Shown here: piece by piece, positions 15,660-30,559 of the stretch
Layout of the letters: each line of letters opens with the position of its first letter
Numbering within the stretch: position 1 is the stretch's first letter
Virus record (IMG/VR): IMGVR_UViG_3300009593_000044
Span: 1 to 39,391 of that record
DNA length: 39,391 nt
Reading direction: 5' to 3' (one strand)
Source of the DNA: a virus
The notes under the pieces: model-generated
What the model saw: only the letters and a program-made list of their open reading frames with translations
Told to the model about the DNA's origin: nothing
Databases searched by the model: none
Translations under genes and position numbers: made by a program

Positions 15660-16256
15660 ATGGATAAAGAATACGTTTGGACTAGATTACATTTCTTTCA
15701 GTTTGATGCGGATAATCCGAAAGAACATAATTACACCGAGATAGAAAACTCAATTAAAAGATTTGGATTTGTAGAATTACCAGTTGTTAATAAAGTTACT
15801 GATACATTAGTTGCTGGTCATGGCAGAATTGCTGCACTTCAAAATATGGCAGCACGTAAAGAACCTATGCCAAAATATTTAAAGCAAGAAGAAGATACAA
15901 AAGAATGGTTAGTACCAACTATCGTAGTTGAGTTTGAAACCGATGCAGAAGCAAAAGCATATATCGTTGCATCAAATCAATTAACAATAGATGGCAGCTG
16001 GAATGAAGCGCTGCTATTAGATTTACTTCAAGACATAAATGCTGCAACACAAAACTTATTAGGTACTGGTTTTGATTTAGAAGATATTATGCAAATGGAA
16101 GAGTTCCAAAACTCGCCATTAAAGTTTGATGAAGATTTAGGTAAAGAAGTACATTACGTAAAAATAGAAGCAGATTCCGCAGAACATGCAGAATCAATTA
16201 AAGGTCAATTAAAAGAGTTAGGGTTTATATGCCAAGTGAAGAGTATCACGAAGTAG
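15660..16256 (+). CDS. ParB/sulfiredoxin-like N-terminal domain protein
   Basis: The product is 198 aa. Residues 19-60 match the ParB N-terminal domain: NPKEHNYTEIENSIKRFGF, then PVVN and LVAGHGRIAAL. In classic ParB the box is GERRxxA; the phage form here is GHGR (53-56). Such proteins in phages are often next to terminase or methylase genes and act as nucleases or CTP-binding DNA-binding proteins. It begins the packaging operon from a leaderless promoter. No methylase gene is seen beside it. The C-terminal third is alpha/beta and unassigned. Confidence 0.8.
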   Translation: MDKEYVWTRLHFFQFDADNPKEHNYTEIENSIKRFGFVELPVVNKVTDTLVAGHGRIAALQNMAARKEPMPKYLKQEEDTKEWLVPTIVVEFETDAEAKAYIVASNQLTIDGSWNEALLLDLLQDINAATQNLLGTGFDLEDIMQMEEFQNSPLKFDEDLGKEVHYVKIEADSAEHAESIKGQLKELGFICQVKSITK

Positions 16257-16603: not shown

Positions 16604-17047
16604 ATGGCAGGCAGACCAACTAAACTTACAAAAGAATTAACTGAAGAAATAGCACAATATCTTCGTGCTGGTAATTACATAGAGACAACCGCAGCCTTAG
16701 TCGGCATCAATCGTGATTCAATATATGAATGGTTAAAGCGTGGCGCAGCTGAACAAGAGAGATTAATTAAGAATCCTAGAGCTAGATTACGTAAAAGAGA
16801 AGAGATTTACGTTGAATTTTCCGACACAGTAAAAAAGGCACAAGCACAATCTGAAGCAATGTTAGTCGGTTTAATTGGTAAAGCTGCATCTAAGAACTGG
16901 ACTGCTGCTGCTTGGAGATTAGAGCGTAAATTTCCAGATAAGTGGGGTAGAACAGAACGTAATACTGCACAAGCACAAGATGACCCAGTAAAAGAACTGG
17001 CAAAACAAATACAGGATTTAAGAGATGATAAATCTTCAGAAGGGTAA
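16604..17047 (+). CDS. terS: Terminase small subunit
   Basis: The product is 147 aa. The N-terminus MAGRPTKLTKELTEEIAQYL is typical of small terminases, followed by a helix-turn-helix (AALVGINRDSIYEWLKRGAA). KFPDKWGR appears near residue 107. The protein would recognise the packaging site and load the large subunit. It is coupled to the large subunit by a 23-nt overlap. Confidence 0.88.
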   Translation: MAGRPTKLTKELTEEIAQYLRAGNYIETTAALVGINRDSIYEWLKRGAAEQERLIKNPRARLRKREEIYVEFSDTVKKAQAQSEAMLVGLIGKAASKNWTAAAWRLERKFPDKWGRTERNTAQAQDDPVKELAKQIQDLRDDKSSEG

Positions 17048-18239
17048 ACAACTAGATTCAATATTAGATTCGACTGCAAGAATTAATGTTTGGCAAGGTT
17101 CAGTATCATCTGGTAAGACAATATCTTCACTTATTAGATGGATAGAATTTTGTAACAATGGTGCTAAAGGTAACTTGTTAATGGTAGGTAAGACCGAAAG
17201 AACGCTAAAACGAAACGTTATTGATGTTTTATCAGAGATATTAGATGGTTCAAACAGTTTAATTACTCGTACTGGTTCTGGAGAAATACAAATAGGCAAC
17301 AGAACTATCTATATAGTTGGTGCTAATGATGAGAGAGCTGAAGCAAAAATACGTGGTTTAACACTTGCTGGTGCTTATGGAGATGAAGTAACACTATGGA
17401 GTGAATCGTTTTTTAATATGCTGCTATCAAGATTAAGAGTACCTAACGCACAATTATTTTTAACAACTAACCCAGACAGTCCTAATCACTGGCTAAAGAA
17501 AAAGTTTTTAGATAGAGAGACTGAACTTGATATAACTAATTTCGCATTTGAGTTAGATGACAACCATACGTTAGACCAAAAGTATGTCGATTCATTAAAA
17601 GCAGAATACGCACCACCAAGTAGTTTGTGGTATAGAAGATTTATTAATGGCGAGTGGGTTATGGCAGAAGGCGCAGTGTATGACTGCTTCGATAGATTAG
17701 ATAATGTTGTATCAGAGCTGCCAAAAATGAGAGAGTATTATGTTGGTGTTGACTATGGCACAACCAATCCATTAGCTGCATTACTTGTTGGAGAAGGAGT
17801 AGATGACCAGCTTTATGTTATAAAAGAGTATTACTATGATTCAAAAATTGGACAAAAACAATTATCTGATGCCGAATACTCCAGAGAGCTGCTTAATTTT
17901 TTAGATGGATATGATGTTCGCAAGATATTTGTTGACCCAAGCGCAGCTTCGTTTATTACTCAACTATGGAGAGATAATCATTTAGGCGTAACTAAAGCAA
18001 ACAATAATGTACAAGATGGTATTAGAATAGTGTACAACTTAATTGGCAGCAGAAAACTTAAGATACATTCAAGCTGCACTAAGTTAATAGGAGAGCTTGA
18101 GAGCTACGTATGGGATGTCAAATCACAAGAACGAGGAGAAGATAAACCATTAAAACGTAACGACCATGCAGTAGATGCGCTAAGATACGTAATGATAGCA
18201 TTAGGTTCTATATGGAGACATTGGATTACAAGGAGTTAA
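17025..18239 (+). CDS. terL: Terminase large subunit
   Basis: The product is 404 aa. ATPase: Walker A GSVSSGKT (25-32), Walker B with D120/E121 (GDE). Nuclease (RNase H-like): D243 in VGVDYG, D304 in FVDP, and D380/D384 in NDHAVDALRY. Complete and of usual length for the SPP1/XtmB/Terminase_3 type. It cuts and pumps DNA into the prohead. The small subunit precedes it and the portal gene follows after one small ORF. Confidence 0.95.
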   Translation: MINLQKGKQLDSILDSTARINVWQGSVSSGKTISSLIRWIEFCNNGAKGNLLMVGKTERTLKRNVIDVLSEILDGSNSLITRTGSGEIQIGNRTIYIVGANDERAEAKIRGLTLAGAYGDEVTLWSESFFNMLLSRLRVPNAQLFLTTNPDSPNHWLKKKFLDRETELDITNFAFELDDNHTLDQKYVDSLKAEYAPPSSLWYRRFINGEWVMAEGAVYDCFDRLDNVVSELPKMREYYVGVDYGTTNPLAALLVGEGVDDQLYVIKEYYYDSKIGQKQLSDAEYSRELLNFLDGYDVRKIFVDPSAASFITQLWRDNHLGVTKANNNVQDGIRIVYNLIGSRKLKIHSSCTKLIGELESYVWDVKSQERGEDKPLKRNDHAVDALRYVMIALGSIWRHWITRS

Positions 18240-18318: not shown

Positions 18319-19806
18319 ATGTTAAAGTTACCAGAGAATGGTTCGGCATTTCCGCCAGAGAACCATAAAAGTATATTTAGAGTTTATGAAGAACATTCAG
18401 CATGGCATGCTGGAGACCCAGCTATATTAAGAAAGACTTATGCTAACGTTCCACAAGATTATAGACCCAGAAAGTATATGTTCTGGACAAGAAAAGGCGC
18501 AACAGATGCGCAAATAGAACGACATCAGATTCACGTTCCACTTGCAGGAGACATAGCACAAACAAGTGCTGATTTATTATTTTCAGAACCACCAAACTTT
18601 ATGGTTAACAACAATGATTTTTCAGAATCAGACCAACTAAACACACAAGAGAATTTAGATTACCTACTCAGAGAATGCGGATTAAAAAATAAATTACTAG
18701 AAGCTGGCGAAACTTGCGCAGCTTTAGGCGGAGTATTTTTAAGATTAGTTTGGAATGCAGACTTCATGGATAAACCAACTATACAAGTTGTATCTCCAGA
18801 TAAAGCAATAGCAACATTTATGTATGGTCAATTAGTAGCAGTAGGATATGTAACCGAATATGATTCAGCTGATGGTCAAGACTTTTATAGATTAGTAGAA
18901 CATCACGAAGATGGGTTAATACACAACGCATTATATCAAGGCACTAAGACAAATATTGGTACAAGAGTTCCTCTTGAGAGATTACAAGAAACTGCGGATT
19001 TAGAAGAAGAGATAGTGCTGCCATTTAAAACATTAGCATCAGTTTATGTACCTAACCAGAGACCACTTAGAAGATTACGTGGATATGAATATGGTCGTTC
19101 TGATTATGATGGTATCGAAGGTTTACTTGATTCAATAGATGAAGCATATACATCATGGATGCGAGATGTAAGACTTGGTAAAGCAAGAATAATTGTACCT
19201 ACTGAATATCTTGAAAGAAGGGGTCGTGGTCGTGGTGCAGCATTTGATGTAGATGCAGAAGTGTTCACTGCATTAGAGATAGACCCAAATCAAGAAAATA
19301 AAGGTATGCAACCAGTTCAGTTTGATATAAGACATGAGCAACACAGAGTAACAGTTATGGAATTAATTGATAGAGCAGTTACTGCTGCTGGATATTCTCC
19401 ACAGTCATTCGGTATAAGTATTGAAGGTAGAGCAGAATCTGGTACTGCATTAAAGCTGCGTGAACGTAAATCATTTACAACACAAGGTAAGAAACAAAGA
19501 TACTGGACACAACCACTTGAAGAGATATTAGAAAAACTGCAAATATTAGATGTAGAATTATTTAGTAAACAATACAAACCAATTAGACCAAGAGTTGAAT
19601 GGCAAGATGCAGTACAACAAGATGTTAGAGAATCTGCAACAGTAATCGAATCATTACATAGAGCGCAAGCAGCTTCATTAGAAACTAAAGTTAGAATCCT
19701 TAATCCAGATTTAACAGAAGAAGAAATAGAAAATGAGGTTCTTAAGATAGCAACTAACTTTAATTTAGCAGACCAAAGCGTTGAAGATATATTAGAGCTA
19801 CCATAA
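18319..19806 (+). CDS. Portal protein (SPP1 gp6-like)
   Basis: The product is 495 aa, the usual size for the family. Order after terL and before the MuF-type head protein is diagnostic. The central part (RRLRGYEYGRSDYDGIEGLL, then IDEAYTSWMRDVR) and SGTALKLRERK are typical of the SPP1/gp6 portal family. It forms the dodecameric DNA entry ring at one capsid vertex. Confidence 0.9.
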   Translation: MLKLPENGSAFPPENHKSIFRVYEEHSAWHAGDPAILRKTYANVPQDYRPRKYMFWTRKGATDAQIERHQIHVPLAGDIAQTSADLLFSEPPNFMVNNNDFSESDQLNTQENLDYLLRECGLKNKLLEAGETCAALGGVFLRLVWNADFMDKPTIQVVSPDKAIATFMYGQLVAVGYVTEYDSADGQDFYRLVEHHEDGLIHNALYQGTKTNIGTRVPLERLQETADLEEEIVLPFKTLASVYVPNQRPLRRLRGYEYGRSDYDGIEGLLDSIDEAYTSWMRDVRLGKARIIVPTEYLERRGRGRGAAFDVDAEVFTALEIDPNQENKGMQPVQFDIRHEQHRVTVMELIDRAVTAAGYSPQSFGISIEGRAESGTALKLRERKSFTTQGKKQRYWTQPLEEILEKLQILDVELFSKQYKPIRPRVEWQDAVQQDVRESATVIESLHRAQAASLETKVRILNPDLTEEEIENEVLKIATNFNLADQSVEDILELP

Positions 19807-19810
19807 TGTT

Positions 19811-22800
19811 ATGGTTTATGACCCAGCAACAAATGAACAGATAGTTGAGACATACGCTTCAATATTTGAAGAAGTAAACGATTTTTTATTACAACTTACC
19901 GCAGAGACACTATTAGAAGGTAAATCCTACGATGGTTCTATCACTGACTGGCTGCAATTTAAACAATCATCAGTAGCTAAATTATTAGAAGAAGCTGGCA
20001 AGCAAGCTGACAAATCTTTTAATGGAATCAAACCATCAATAACCGCAGCAGTAGAAGCTGCGTATAGTATTGGAGAGAGTACCGCAGCTGCCGAATTATT
20101 AAGTGTAGGTTTACCAGTAGATGTTGGTTCTGGATTTCAAGGACTGGCAGAATATTCAATAGAAGCATTAATAGATGGTGCAGTTAATAGATTTCAAAAC
20201 AGAGCAAATAAACTTAATGTAGTTAGAGCTACACAAGATGTTTATGCAGAAGTTACAGAAGAAGTAGCAGCTTTAGTTACTTCTGGAGTTGCAACATTAG
20301 AAGAAGCAGTCGAAATTGCGGTAGATAGATTCTTAGATAAAGGCATAAAGACAGTACAACTTGGTAACAAAAATATGCAGATAGATGATTATGCAAACAC
20401 TGCAATTAGGACAATAGCTGGTAATGCACAAGTACAAGGTTCATTAGACAGATACGAAGATGCAGAACAATACTTAGTTTTTATTACTGATAGTCCTATG
20501 GAGTGTTCTTTATGCAGACCATTCGAAGGCAAGGTATTAAGAACAACAGAAGATTTATCTAAAGTACCAGAAGAATATCATGGTTCAGAACAATCTTTAG
20601 AGTATGCCAAAGGCAAAGGTTTATTCCATCCTAATTGTACTCATTCTGCACAAATGTATATAGAAGGTTATTCAACACCACCTACTGACACAGATGATGA
20701 AGCTAATACTAAAAGAAGAGCTAAGATTCGTAGATTAGATAAGCTAGAACGCACAAATAGACTAAAAGAAAAAATATATCGTAAAGATGGTCAAACAAAT
20801 AGAGCTAAGGGTGCAAAAGCAAGAGCTACTAAATATAGAGCAGAACGTAGGCAACTAGAAGCTGCAATAGAACGTAAATCTTTAGGATGGTTTACTGGAG
20901 AAGATAGATTACGTAGATTAGCAGAAGCAAATGGAATTAAACCAGAAGTACTTATTGATGCAAAAGGTAATTTACCTAAGTTAAATAAATTAGCTAAAAG
21001 CACTGGTTTTGACCCACGATTAGTTAGTCCAGATGTAAGAAGGGGAGTGGCAGCAGTTAAAGACCCACCAGACATTTCTGATATTTTAGAAGCAACTGGT
21101 GTTAAAGATTATAGAGAGCTGCCAGAATCTATACGTGCAGATTTAAGATTAAAATATAAAGATTTTTTTGAATCGGAGTTTGGCGTTATGAATTTCTTAG
21201 AAGGCGAAGGTAAGTTTCACAATCCACCAGCACTTCCAGACAAAGTTAAAAAAATGAACAAAGTTCAGTTTAATAAATGGATAAAAGAAAATAGAAAAGA
21301 TTATACAAACAGATATGGTAACTGGAGATGGGATAACAAAAAAGGTAAACCAGATTTTAAATGGAGAAAAAAACATATAACAGATAATTGGACAGGAGAT
21401 ATAGAAAATTTATTAGAAGAAGCTGAAGCTGCTGGTGCGTTATCAGAAAAAAAACAAGTTGTAGCTGGTGGACTTCCATCATCTGGTAAAACTTTTACGT
21501 TAGCTAACAAAGCTGGCGACCCAAGTCTTAAAACATATAAACTAGATGAGTATGTAATTCTTAACTCCGATGACTTTAAGACCAAGATTATATTTAGAGA
21601 TTATGCTTCTGCTACTGACAAAAGATTAAACGATTTATTAAGCGATACTTTTATAAATGACCCAGATTTTGGAGTAGGTTCTAAGTTAGGTGCTAACAAT
21701 CCAGTAATGAAAAAATTAAAAACAACTCATCCAGAGATATACAAAGAAATACTTGGTAAAGAATTTGATAAAGGAATGCTTACAGAAATTAGAGAACTTG
21801 TAGCATCTAAAGTACCAATAGGAGACACTGGACTATTTGGTTACGAAGCTGCAAACATATTGCACGAAGAATCATCTGCAATGCTTAAAGCTGCACAAGA
21901 AGCAGCATCAGATAAAGGTTTAAATATAGTTCACGATGTAACTATGGGTAGTGCAAAACCAGTAGAGTTAGTAGAAGATTTAGTAGATGCAAAAGGTTAT
22001 GAACCAGCTGAAGTAATGTTTATTATGTATTCACAAGAGCAAGCATCAGATTCAGTTATAGACAGATATATAAGAAAAAACTTTGATACTGACAACAATC
22101 GTGGCGGTAGGTATGTTATGTCAATAGTATTAGATGATGCTACTAAAAAAATTAAAGACCCAGCATTCGCTAACAAGACAATAGATTTATTAGGCAGACC
22201 AGCTTTAACAGACAATGAAGTGTTTTTATCAGAGTTATTAAAATCAGATGCAGTATCACAAAATGCTGATGACATTCAGTTAGTTAACAGATATTCAGAT
22301 ATTGATTTTGATACAGGACAAGCTAAAGCATATCCAGTAGAAATTGTTAAAGATACTAATGGCAATTACAAAGTAACTACATCAGCAAGTAAAAATAAAA
22401 AAGTTGCTATTGATGGTATGAAAGTTAGAACTAAATCACAAATAGATATTCCTACTAACAAAGCTGGCATAGATGAATTTGATAAAGTTATTGAAGCACA
22501 AGTTTTACAAACTCCAACTGGTAGAAACATTGGAATAAAATCAGAATTTTATGAAAGAATTGTTAAGAGAGATAAATATTTTAAAGATTTAAAACTTAAA
22601 CCAGATGATGCTGGTCTATATATTATTGCAAAAGAAAAGGGATTTACTGGTAAACCAGAAAAAGTAGCTTTACCAACAGATTTGACCGATGTACCACTTA
22701 CTGAATCTAACACTGCAAAAGGAGTAGTCAATCCTATTGGTGGTGGTGTAAATATAGTTAATGAAGCAATCGAAGAAGATTTAATAGTTTATAGGGGTAT

Positions 22801-23752
22801 ATCTGATACTTTAGACCAAGACCAAGATACATGGCAATTACAAGATACAAAAGTACCAGCTGCTGACAGATTAAATTCTATTCAGAAAACTATGAATTTC
22901 TTTGATGATGACAGAATAGCACGAGAAGTTACAGATTTAGGAATACCATTTTATGAGGGAGATACAATTTCTAACAGAATTAAAAGAACGATTAACAATA
23001 TGAACATAAATATAGATTCTAATTATATAGATGCTGAAACATTTAAAGAAGCACAAGAAGAGTTTAGAAAACTAAAACTTAAAGATATAGAAAATGGTAC
23101 AGAAAGTTTTTTTACGAGTTCATATTTTACACAAAGTCAAGAATTAGTCGATAAGGGTTTTATTGATATAAGTCTTTTAGGTAATGAAGAATTTCAAATT
23201 ATTTATGATGAAAAATTATATGGAAAAGGTATAAATGTTAAACAAGTAAAACAAGCACCATTAGTTAAAAGCGGTATGGATATACACAAAGAATTTATAG
23301 ATGGAGATTATTATGCTGGCAATTCAGCAGTATATGGTTATGGAACTTATACAGATACAGAGTTTTCGGTAGCAAAAGATTATTCGCAATGGGAATTTCA
23401 AACTAGGGGTAGAGGTTCTGGTGGTGTAGTCCAAGTAATGAAAATTAAAGCAGGTACAAGAATGCCAAGTGCAGAAGTTTTAAAGCAAGTTGAAGAAGAG
23501 GTACATTTAAGAAACGTAGAAAATTCTAAGTTATCTACTAAAGGGGGGTATAATGAAGATAACGTAAGAGTTTCCAGAGAGTTATCCCAAACAGTCGAAT
23601 ACGATGTTGGGCGTAGGCTTGCAGCTATGGGTTATCAAGCATACGATGTTAATATGTTAGAAAGTACAGTAACTCACGTAGTTATACTTGATAGAACCGC
23701 AGTAGTGGTAGCGGAACAACCGCTAATGATAGATGGTAAGGTACAATATTAG
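19811..23752 (+). CDS. MuF-type minor head protein with zeta-toxin-like kinase and ADP-ribosyltransferase-like domains
   Basis: The product is 1313 aa, several times longer than plain MuF/SPP1 gp7 proteins. Residues ~1-290: minor-capsid/MuF-like domain with C232 and C235 (DSPMECSLC) and H273/C276 (LFHPNC). Residues ~290-350: basic linker. Residues ~545-760: zeta-toxin-like kinase, with P-loop GGLPSSGKT (553-561), ILNSDDF (D587/D588), H685 in HEESSAMLKAAQEAASDKG, then NIVHDVTM. Residues ~985-1313: ADP-ribosyltransferase-like, with YRG (R995), YGYGTY (1175-1180), AKDY (1188-1191) and late VVILDRTAVVV. Phage MuF proteins with C-terminal toxins are known as a polymorphic class. The protein would be packaged in the head and enter the cell with the DNA. 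Domain limits are by eye. No partner antitoxin or immunity gene was identified. Confidence 0.8.
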   Translation: MVYDPATNEQIVETYASIFEEVNDFLLQLTAETLLEGKSYDGSITDWLQFKQSSVAKLLEEAGKQADKSFNGIKPSITAAVEAAYSIGESTAAAELLSVGLPVDVGSGFQGLAEYSIEALIDGAVNRFQNRANKLNVVRATQDVYAEVTEEVAALVTSGVATLEEAVEIAVDRFLDKGIKTVQLGNKNMQIDDYANTAIRTIAGNAQVQGSLDRYEDAEQYLVFITDSPMECSLCRPFEGKVLRTTEDLSKVPEEYHGSEQSLEYAKGKGLFHPNCTHSAQMYIEGYSTPPTDTDDEANTKRRAKIRRLDKLERTNRLKEKIYRKDGQTNRAKGAKARATKYRAERRQLEAAIERKSLGWFTGEDRLRRLAEANGIKPEVLIDAKGNLPKLNKLAKSTGFDPRLVSPDVRRGVAAVKDPPDISDILEATGVKDYRELPESIRADLRLKYKDFFESEFGVMNFLEGEGKFHNPPALPDKVKKMNKVQFNKWIKENRKDYTNRYGNWRWDNKKGKPDFKWRKKHITDNWTGDIENLLEEAEAAGALSEKKQVVAGGLPSSGKTFTLANKAGDPSLKTYKLDEYVILNSDDFKTKIIFRDYASATDKRLNDLLSDTFINDPDFGVGSKLGANNPVMKKLKTTHPEIYKEILGKEFDKGMLTEIRELVASKVPIGDTGLFGYEAANILHEESSAMLKAAQEAASDKGLNIVHDVTMGSAKPVELVEDLVDAKGYEPAEVMFIMYSQEQASDSVIDRYIRKNFDTDNNRGGRYVMSIVLDDATKKIKDPAFANKTIDLLGRPALTDNEVFLSELLKSDAVSQNADDIQLVNRYSDIDFDTGQAKAYPVEIVKDTNGNYKVTTSASKNKKVAIDGMKVRTKSQIDIPTNKAGIDEFDKVIEAQVLQTPTGRNIGIKSEFYERIVKRDKYFKDLKLKPDDAGLYIIAKEKGFTGKPEKVALPTDLTDVPLTESNTAKGVVNPIGGGVNIVNEAIEEDLIVYRGISDTLDQDQDTWQLQDTKVPAADRLNSIQKTMNFFDDDRIAREVTDLGIPFYEGDTISNRIKRTINNMNINIDSNYIDAETFKEAQEEFRKLKLKDIENGTESFFTSSYFTQSQELVDKGFIDISLLGNEEFQIIYDEKLYGKGINVKQVKQAPLVKSGMDIHKEFIDGDYYAGNSAVYGYGTYTDTEFSVAKDYSQWEFQTRGRGSGGVVQVMKIKAGTRMPSAEVLKQVEEEVHLRNVENSKLSTKGGYNEDNVRVSRELSQTVEYDVGRRLAAMGYQAYDVNMLESTVTHVVILDRTAVVVAEQPLMIDGKVQY

Positions 23753-23764
23753 GAAGGAACAATA

Positions 23765-23938
23765 ATGAAAGTATCTGCTGCAACAAGCAGAAGGATGGGC
23801 GAATTAAAATCTAAATTATCCATGCAAGCAAATGCCGAGTTTCATCAACATTTGTTAGAAGGTGGAGATGCCATGATGTGGCTACTTAAATATGAGAAGA
23901 AGCTGCAAGGCAAGAGACTAAAAAAACAAGGAATATAA
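23765..23938 (+). CDS. Small hypothetical protein (57 aa) after MuF gene
   Basis: ATG after AGGAAGGAA. It is basic and helical (SRRMGELKSKLSMQANAEF, then MMWLLKYEKKLQGKRLKK). It directly follows the toxin-bearing MuF gene, so it is the first candidate to test for immunity or antitoxin function; there is no sequence evidence for this. Confidence 0.65.
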   Translation: MKVSAATSRRMGELKSKLSMQANAEFHQHLLEGGDAMMWLLKYEKKLQGKRLKKQGI

Positions 23939-27888: not shown

Positions 27889-28412
27889 TGAAAGATTACG
27901 AATATATAAGAGCGCCAAGAATAACTAGATTTGAGAGGGGTAAAACTTATTTACTAGATGACATTAAAGAAAAAATGGAAGCATTACAATTTGAATCTTA
28001 TATGAATGCCTTAATTGATATGCTTAAAAAGCTAGAACATAATGCAGCTGCTTATTATAAAGGTATGGAATACGACTTTACTGATGAGCAATTTCGTGGA
28101 GTTACTTTTGGCGATAAATGGGATAAAGTATGGATTATGCGAGATGGTAAAAAAGCAAGAATCGTATGTTGGATAGATGCAAATACAGGTTTAATATATA
28201 AACCTAATGGAGTTAGCGCACCATATCCAAAACCAAGAGCTGATATGTTTGATGCAGAGACTTACGAATATGCTGACCCACATGGCGGATGGCTTTATAA
28301 AAATTTTGATGCAGAAGAAAAAAGCATGAGAAAAGCTATTTTGTGGTCAAAGCAAGAAAGAAATCTTAAAGAAGTATTTGAACATGGAGAGAAAAAATTG
28401 ACTGATAGATGA
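27888..28412 (+). CDS. Hypothetical protein (174 aa)
   Basis: ATG overlaps the previous stop. The N-terminal helical part (MNALIDMLKKLEHNAAAYY) precedes a beta-rich part with KARIVCWIDANTGLIYKPNG. It might be related to phage proteins that interact with nucleotides, but no motif proves this. The function is unknown. Confidence 0.6.
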   Translation: MKDYEYIRAPRITRFERGKTYLLDDIKEKMEALQFESYMNALIDMLKKLEHNAAAYYKGMEYDFTDEQFRGVTFGDKWDKVWIMRDGKKARIVCWIDANTGLIYKPNGVSAPYPKPRADMFDAETYEYADPHGGWLYKNFDAEEKSMRKAILWSKQERNLKEVFEHGEKKLTDR

Positions 28413-28831
28413 TAATAGAATGCTTAATAGGTATTGCGGTTTTAACACCGCAATATTTATCTGAATACAAAACATGTCAATGGTATCAAGAAGCTGCGGA
28501 AATCACACAACCTTATCATCATGCGTTTGAATTATATTTAGAAGAAGAAGATTATGTTTGGGCTATTGCTACAACATTCTGCGAATCAAGCGGCAAACAA
28601 TATGCAGTATCAAGTGCTAACGCTAAAGGTATATGGCAATATTTAGACAAGACCACAAACTGGTTATCAGAAAAACTTAACGAAAACTTTAATCCTTACA
28701 GTCCATACGATTCATCTTATATGACCGCATGGCTGCTGCGTAACGACATAAATCCAAAGAGACACTGGCAACCATCAGAACATTGCTGGAATAAAAATCT
28801 GCCCAAATATCTATATAATTTACATTATTAA
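28409..28831 (+). CDS. Transglycosylase/lysozyme-like protein
   Basis: The product is 140 aa. A hydrophobic N-terminus (CLIGIAVLT, residues 5-13) could be a short signal or anchor. WAIATTFCESSG gives the catalytic Glu E59, and SSANAKGIWQYL (68-79) is the SLT/lysozyme-like G-x-(M/W)-Q box. It would cut glycan strands of peptidoglycan. A place just before scaffold and capsid genes suggests a virion-linked enzyme for DNA entry rather than the main endolysin. ATGA overlap with the previous gene. Confidence 0.7.
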   Translation: MIIECLIGIAVLTPQYLSEYKTCQWYQEAAEITQPYHHAFELYLEEEDYVWAIATTFCESSGKQYAVSSANAKGIWQYLDKTTNWLSEKLNENFNPYSPYDSSYMTAWLLRNDINPKRHWQPSEHCWNKNLPKYLYNLHY

Positions 28832-29611: not shown

Positions 29612-30559
29612 ATGGCTGGAATTACAGGGCAAGGTCAAACATTTAATCTTCCTAATTACGTGGGAGACTTATTTGAATTGACCCCAAGCGATACTCCATT
29701 TTTGAGCTTAATTGGTGGACTTAGTGGTGGAGAATCTACTACAAGTCCTTCATTCCAATGGCAAGCATACGACTTGAGAGCTGCTGCGGCTGACAATGCT
29801 GCACTAGAAGGCGCTAACGCACCTACAAGCGAATCAAGAGTTAGAAGTAACTACTATAACGTATGCCAAATCATGCAAGAGAGTATCGAAGTTTCATACT
29901 CAAAGATGGCTTCCATTGGCGCTTACAGTGGAGAAAATATAGCTGGAGACAATCCAGTAACAAACGAAATGGATTTTCAAGTAGAGCAAATGCTAAAGCA
30001 AATTGCTAGAGATGCTGAAAAATCATTCTTAGAGGGCGCATTTAACGACCCAGCAGATAATACTACTGCGAGAAAAACTCAAGGTATATCTAATGCTGCT
30101 GGTAACAGTGCAGATATGGCTGATGCCGCACTTACTGAAGATAAGGTCTTAGACCTTATGCAAGCAGTATGGGAAAATGGCGGAATCCAAGTTTCTGAAA
30201 CTGCAACACTAATGTGTAATGCAAACGTTAAAAGACAGTTAACAAAGATTTTTGTTACTGACAAAAACTATCGTGAAGAATCACGTAATGTTGCTGGAGT
30301 TAACGTTACAACAATAGAAACTGATTTTGGTAAAGTGAACGTTCTTTTAAACAGACACGTTCATACCCAACAGTTATATGTTGTATCTGCTGAATTGTGC
30401 GTACCAGTATTTATGAACATCCCAGATAAAGGATTCTTATTCGTAGAACCTCTTGCAAAAGAAGGCGCTGCTGAAAAGTTCCAAATCTATGGAGAAGTTG
30501 GACTTAAATATGGTAATCCAAATGCACATGGTAAAATAGTTAATATTGCTGCTATCTAA
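29612..30559 (+). CDS. Major capsid protein (SU10/DUF5309-like)
   Basis: The product is 315 aa. N-terminus with TFNLPNYVGDLFELTPSDTP followed by FLSLIGG is characteristic of the SU10-type HK97-fold capsid proteins (DUF5309). Starts after AAGGAGTAAAAG. It is the most abundant virion protein and builds the icosahedral shell. A strong terminator follows, so it ends the head transcript. Confidence 0.9.
   Translation: MAGITGQGQTFNLPNYVGDLFELTPSDTPFLSLIGGLSGGESTTSPSFQWQAYDLRAAAADNAALEGANAPTSESRVRSNYYNVCQIMQESIEVSYSKMASIGAYSGENIAGDNPVTNEMDFQVEQMLKQIARDAEKSFLEGAFNDPADNTTARKTQGISNAAGNSADMADAALTEDKVLDLMQAVWENGGIQVSETATLMCNANVKRQLTKIFVTDKNYREESRNVAGVNVTTIETDFGKVNVLLNRHVHTQQLYVVSAELCVPVFMNIPDKGFLFVEPLAKEGAAEKFQIYGEVGLKYGNPNAHGKIVNIAAI

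Follow-up and report, generated by a model that had tools for sequence, protein, structure and literature searches.

A phage MuF head protein with a constant zeta-type kinase and an exchangeable, ADP-ribosyltransferase-like C-terminal module linked to a small ORF

The virus record IMGVR_UViG_3300009593_000044 (IMG/VR) was analysed over its whole length of 39,391 bases (hereafter the window); it is linear, has a GC content of 34.7% and may be a fragment. Our subject is its muf gene, which begins with ATG, adjoins the portal gene in the canonical order (portal end at 19806, muf start at 19811) and encodes a 1313-residue protein with four parts: a MuF head domain, a middle region, a zeta-type kinase and a C-terminal module (hereafter the tip) that resembles ADP-ribosyltransferases (ARTs). 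Scans of IMG/VR recovered full-length collinear homologues in about 20 contigs (∼50–91% identity) as well as fragments, which rules out a chance frame or a misassembly. The single open reading frame (ORF) described in the first-pass annotation of this DNA is thus real, and all the motifs quoted there were found at their positions. Its MuF domain with C232, C235, H273 and C276 also holds: Pfam recognizes Phage_min_cap2 (2e-31), and the four residues are invariant in an alignment of 17 sequences. The middle region carries a strongly conserved ERKSLGWFTGEDRLRRLA that matches no known family.

Comparison of the homologues reveals that the MuF domain and the kinase are a constant scaffold, while the tip is a swappable cassette. 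Three lines of evidence (i.e. truncated homologues, pairwise identity and synonymous divergence, dS) place the boundary between them near residue 840–890: (i) the tip-less proteins of contigs L013 (875 residues) and L024 (859 residues) end at this boundary, and the genes directly after them are of the kind that lies downstream in the window; (ii) the pairs L017/L027, L017/L020, L016/L027 and L009/L011 have scaffolds that are 92–97% identical but tips that are 43–47% identical; and (iii) between the window and L003, identity is 93% in the kinase and 58% in the tip, and dS rises from 0.36 to 0.96. The tips differ in three scaffold pairs that are independent of each other, L017/L027, L009/L011 and window/L003.

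The exchange reaches beyond the muf stop codon into a 57-residue ORF that the first-pass annotation missed, together with the cassette behaviour itself. This small ORF starts at the muf stop codon or a few bases later, and start and stop overlap in several homologues. Identity along the locus is 97% in the scaffold, 44% in the tip, 74% in the small ORF and 90% in the next gene for L017/L027, and 93%, 47%, 68% and 99%, respectively, for L009/L011. At the DNA level, it drops near residue 840–870 from mostly 90–99% to about 40–75% (L017/L020, L017/L027 and L009/L011) and recovers to 94–98% ∼115 bases past the stop codon in the first two pairs and somewhat later in L009/L011; the second break falls within the 57-residue ORF. 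These sequence profiles show that recombination between conserved flanks replaces the tip along with about two thirds of the small ORF, counted from its start.

Contigs that agree in their tip (L016/L017, L020/L027 and window/L002) also have the small ORF in common (91–100% identity). It is present in 13 of the 13 tip-bearing loci examined (as a diverged 65-residue form in L014) and absent in the tip-less L013 and L024 and in the distant relative L048. Its identity tracks that of the tip (partial correlation 0.81 given the scaffold, a descriptive value because pairs are not independent), and it is under purifying selection, with a non-synonymous divergence (dN) of 0.18–0.34 compared to a dS of 0.88–2.05. 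Joint exchange and loss of this kind is the signature expected of a polymorphic toxin tip to which a candidate immunity gene is linked. The kinase and the tip probably play different roles because the former is constant while the latter and the small ORF are exchanged or lost together.

The kinase is present in every complete relative seen, including proteins without the tip. Purifying selection acts on every part of the protein; in three of four comparisons, it is the kinase that is most constrained. In a tree of the MuF and kinase parts, the tip-less L013 groups with the tip-bearing L003 (support 98/95) and the tip-less L024 lies in another clade; tip-less forms therefore arose in separate lineages. 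The support values overstate the certainty with which L013 is placed, because the L003/L013 profile suggests further recombination within the scaffold. The distant relatives L048 and L049 keep the MuF domain and the kinase (38% identity in the kinase) and have a quite different C-terminus, which shows that the kinase is again the constant part and the C-terminus the variable one. Near the C-terminus of the L048 protein, GSLVSTSANAS and EGEYEYIVP resemble the STS and ExE motifs of R-S-E ARTs; Pfam is silent on this C-terminus and no matching strand-1 Arg was identified in it. Another relative (L007, 2900–3246) has a different C-terminal sequence after the kinase, cut by the contig end, and possibly represents a third kind of tip. 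Searches of 50,697 phage records returned no relatives of the kinase or of the tip, and a genome collection returned none of the kinase.

The P-loop kinase resembling zeta toxins that the first-pass annotation had proposed was confirmed. Pfam Zeta_toxin (PF06414) matches residues 679–782 (4.8e-13; 49.4 bits against a cut-off of 22.3) and is matched by all 17 aligned members. An AlphaFold model of the kinase has a predicted local distance difference test (pLDDT) score of 77 and a predicted template modelling (pTM) score of 0.76; in Foldseek, the eight PDB structures that match it best are all zeta or PezT (E 4.6e-5 to 6e-3; best probability 1.00). The recognizable motifs are a Walker A (G553–K560) plus T561, N585–D587, H685-E-E-S-S, D709-V-T711, R752 and R764-G-G-R767. 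In the 17-sequence alignment, no variation occurs at G553–K560, D587, H685, D709-V710-T711, R752, R764 and R767, and little at T561 and H708; D588, which the annotation had listed beside D587, is replaced in two homologues (NPDRF and NPDYM). Annotated actinobacterial plasmid zeta proteins share the H-x-ESS, D/E-G/V-T, R and GGR motifs, and R752, GGR767, H685, ESS and T711 align with them. Residues K46, D67, E116, R158 and R171 of zeta are essential, and T118 and R120 contact uridine diphosphate N-acetylglucosamine (UDP-GlcNAc) (PMC6356619, PMC3062530). By motif register, catalytic and substrate residues are kept as K560, D587, D709, R752, R767 and T711; the equivalence of K560 and D587 to K46 and D67 was placed by motif rather than by residue-level superposition. 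UDP-GlcNAc would be a first guess for the substrate. Sequence matches of NmFic to the kinase profile (E 0.0015) were judged spurious given the zeta fold result.

For the tip, motif comparison leads us to think that it is probably, though far from surely, an ART. Its features are R995 (VYRG), G1178-T-Y1180, Y1191 and H1289-VVIL-D1294, and R995, Y1180 and D1294 are invariant (14 sequences). The order R995 (VYRG), GTY1180-x7-A-x-x-Y, VVQVMKI, GYQAYDV and HVVILD1294 follows the ART pattern of N4-phage ARTs, where the counterparts are LYHG, GLFFTNSLELARDYA, VKEVAVDL, GGYDGAIV and EIMVVKRD. The ART-like segment of the first-pass annotation keeps its Arg and its motif order but loses its 'AKDY', whose K and D are not conserved. 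In hhalign, the tip segment GTYTDTEFSVAKDY, with the Y1180 motif, aligned on the strand-2 motif of the N4-phage ARTs with a score of 29.6 (P about 0.002; 13% probability), whereas unrelated phage windows scored at most 20.6. Column shuffles reached or exceeded the observed score in five of 200 cases, at least one of them with an implausible value (∼134), and are an imperfect control. Comparison with the R-S-E ART of Microbacterium phage PermaG was negative but of low power, as the N4-phage ART compared with PermaG was also negative. The ART families PF18760 and PF03496, searched directly against the tip, gave nothing.

The AlphaFold model of the tip (pLDDT 80; pTM 0.63) has its lowest confidence around the YGYGTYTDT motif. 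Among viral predicted structures, it matches only uncharacterised proteins (best E 2.9e-7), one of them from Bacillus phage SP-15. A search of phage SP-15 with the tip profile gave no match. SP15_271 (L058, 2328–4619), an uncharacterised 763-residue protein that matches the tip by predicted fold, was picked through the length of the SP-15 fold-match protein and then read by eye; its C-terminus contains GTGFYVAT and KGYDAI...YLI but no strand-1 Arg. The DUF3626-like middle of SP15_271 is related to the C-terminus of the TP901-1 minor head protein. A PHROG helix-turn-helix match in the tip (segment residues 325–376; 3.1e-4) is not believed, as it occurs in only two of 14 members.

The surrounding genes include those for the large terminase subunit, the portal and the major capsid protein (Table 1). 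Upstream of the terminase genes, a 198-residue protein (15660–16256) has only a weak 3H match in Pfam, and its counterparts in L013 and L048 are ParB-like by eye. Downstream of muf lies a block of small genes, the first conserved one of which directly follows muf in the tip-less L013. Just upstream of the capsid genes, a 140-residue protein (28409–28831) with a transglycosylase SLT domain (7e-8) has counterparts in L013 and L024 and is possibly a virion lysozyme. RNA and tRNA searches found nothing. The best portal relatives (37–41% identity) are from Streptomyces phages, with many others from Microbacterium and Gordonia phages, and in bacterial genomes MuF finds its best relatives in Nocardioides, Nonomuraea, Salinispora and Intrasporangium, and weaker ones in Lentisphaeria and Kiritimatiellae. 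Because of these portal and MuF relatives, the host is likely to be actinobacterial (Actinomycetota).

Table 1. Features of the muf locus in the window and the corresponding proteins of two distant relatives.
Feature	Coordinates	Strand	Basis or remark
Terminase large subunit	17025..18239	+	Pfam Terminase_6N 4.5e-11; PHROG terminase large subunit 6.6e-47
Portal protein	18319..19806	+	Pfam SPP1_portal 6e-18; PHROG portal 6.7e-96; 37–41% identity to actinophage portals
Whole muf gene: MuF, middle region, zeta-type kinase and exchangeable ART-like C-terminal module	19811..23752	+	1313 aa
MuF/Phage_min_cap2 head domain, residues 6–352	19826..20866	+	Pfam 2e-31; PHROG minor head protein 6e-49; C232-C235-H273-C276 invariant
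Middle region, residues 353–545, no known domain	20867..21445	+	17-sequence alignment
Zeta-family kinase, residues 546–868	21446..22414	+	Pfam Zeta_toxin; Foldseek; alignment with annotated actinobacterial zeta proteins
Exchangeable ART-like C-terminal module, residues 869–1313	22415..23749	+	Boundary and exchange by comparison; ART assignment suggestive
57-aa ORF (MKVSAATSRR...), unannotated; candidate immunity or partner protein	23765..23938	+	Lost and exchanged with the C-terminal module
Next conserved gene, 79 aa	23960..24199	+	Outside the exchanged block; 90–99% identical in close pairs with differing cassettes
Major capsid protein, SU10-like	29612..30559	+	Pfam SU10_MCP 7.8e-92
Giant MuF–kinase protein, L048	6354-14456		2700 aa
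Giant MuF–kinase protein, L049	6354-12500		Open at its end

Taken together, these data lead us to lean, by a modest degree, towards a virion-associated polymorphic effector with a fixed zeta-type kinase, an exchangeable toxin tip and a linked immunity or partner ORF. The MuF domain would dock the protein at the portal inside the head, so that it might enter the cell with the DNA, as expected from its family. The kinase, permanent in the scaffold, would probably phosphorylate a nucleotide sugar such as UDP-GlcNAc and so blunt cell-wall synthesis, given its conserved catalytic residues. Residues from about 869 to 1313 would form the exchangeable toxin tip, most likely an enzyme with an ART fold, and the overlapping or adjacent 57-residue ORF could encode its immunity or partner protein. 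Sequence comparison shows phages of the group swapping the tip and part of the small ORF between conserved flanks, or losing both.

Several observations weigh against this reading. The last 430 residues match no ART family in Pfam, PHROG or NCBIfam, and nothing in the PDB either by fold or by sequence profile; the structure search that the first-pass annotation had proposed as a check bore out the kinase and returned no PDB match for the C-terminal model. The expected position of the catalytic Glu appears to be H1289, before the VVIL strand (Tyr in one homologue). The small ORF is short and matches no Pfam family. The exchanged block does not include its C-terminal third, and its divergence is lower than that of the tip (68–75% compared to 43–47% identity); because of these last two points, immunity is only one reading of it. 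Published MuF toxins are tied to temperate phages (PMC5576092), and no integrase or repressor was recognized among the scanned ORFs of the window.

A bolder form of the same idea, which we regard as tentative, is that the zeta-type kinase is a permanent warhead and that an unrecognized ART clade with an R-Y-D/H active site supplies the swappable one, each with its own 57-residue immunity protein. If this is true, phages of one lineage would trade toxin–antidote cassettes to compete mutually or to defeat host-specific defences. Somewhat less probable is that the tip is a structural or ejection module that evolves fast and owes its diversity to host recognition or defence, the 57-residue ORF serving as its chaperone or assembly partner. 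The failure to match an ART family or PDB fold, the existence of phages of the group that dispense with the tip and the uncharacterised phage proteins that are its best fold relatives are all consistent with such a module; nevertheless, the motif order and the invariant R995, Y1180 and D1294 resemble ART active sites, and the N4-type profile comparison placed the expected motif in register with a score above those of unrelated windows. The first-pass annotation had envisaged an injected protein acting at once on cell-wall synthesis and on translation or transcription. In that case, which we consider unlikely, kinase and ART would be delivered in the same infection against cell-wall precursors and against host proteins or RNA, respectively, with no toxin–immunity logic. 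Both segments are under purifying selection, MuF–zeta and MuF–ART fusions are known separately, and injected polyvalent proteins with several domains form an established class (PMC5512222); however, the tip is exchanged or lost with the small ORF while the kinase stays, and the ART chemistry of the tip is predicted. Improbable, finally, is a kinase that acts on nicotinamide adenine dinucleotide (NAD) or an ADP-ribose product instead of UDP-GlcNAc and shares a metabolite with the tip: zeta-fold kinases do have more than one substrate (AvrRxo1 phosphorylates NAD to make 3'-NADP; PMC5087710) and the UDP-phosphate contact R120 of zeta corresponds by motif register to a conserved Gly (G713), but T711 and D709, the equivalents of T118 and E116, are kept, Gly also occupies this position in one annotated actinobacterial plasmid zeta protein (DGTLGN), and the kinase is retained in proteins without the tip.

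MuF fusions have so far mostly been catalogued by domain name. The present family is a natural experiment: the head proteins are nearly identical, and most of the difference lies in the tip and in the first part of the 57-residue ORF. Such defined pairs make the toxin–immunity idea for injected head proteins directly testable and raise the question of why one enzyme is kept while the other module changes hands. Should the tip prove to be an ART, it would extend the ART superfamily beyond current profiles.

MuF polymorphic toxins (PMC5576092), whose tips include ARTs, share with this protein a head domain of the MuF2 type in a gene next to that of the portal, a variable C-terminus and a small ORF immediately downstream; such a putative immunity ORF follows 89% of MuF toxin genes, compared to 26% of the short MuF genes (PMC5576092). 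By contrast, the protein described here has a zeta-type kinase built into its constant part and a tip that no family library recognizes, and exchange of the tip with the small ORF is seen between near-identical scaffolds. The MuF–zeta fusion described together with polyvalent proteins (PMC5512222) likewise joins MuF to a zeta-type kinase in a phage and is predicted to be injected; the available part of that source names the fusion but mentions neither an ART tip on it nor cassette exchange or a linked small ORF. As regards polyvalency, one effector domain (the kinase) is found among virion genes here, and the second enzyme domain is a candidate. MuF–ART fusions have been published (PMC9503650). 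Gene 5 of PermaG also combines a MuF head domain with a C-terminal ART, but that ART is recognized by Pfam (ADPrib_exo_Tox, 8.4e-24), is of the R-S-E type and comes without a kinase, whereas the tip here is unrecognized and has the pattern R..Y..H/D. The epsilon–zeta and PezAT toxin–antitoxin kinases share the kinase fold and catalytic motifs; here, the kinase is instead part of a head protein, and the analysis identified neither an epsilon nor a PezA-like antitoxin. A text search of open-licence papers found none that joins MuF, zeta and ART elements. The combination appears to be new: a scaffold-fixed kinase, an unrecognized ART-like tip that moves as a cassette and a small ORF that moves along with it.

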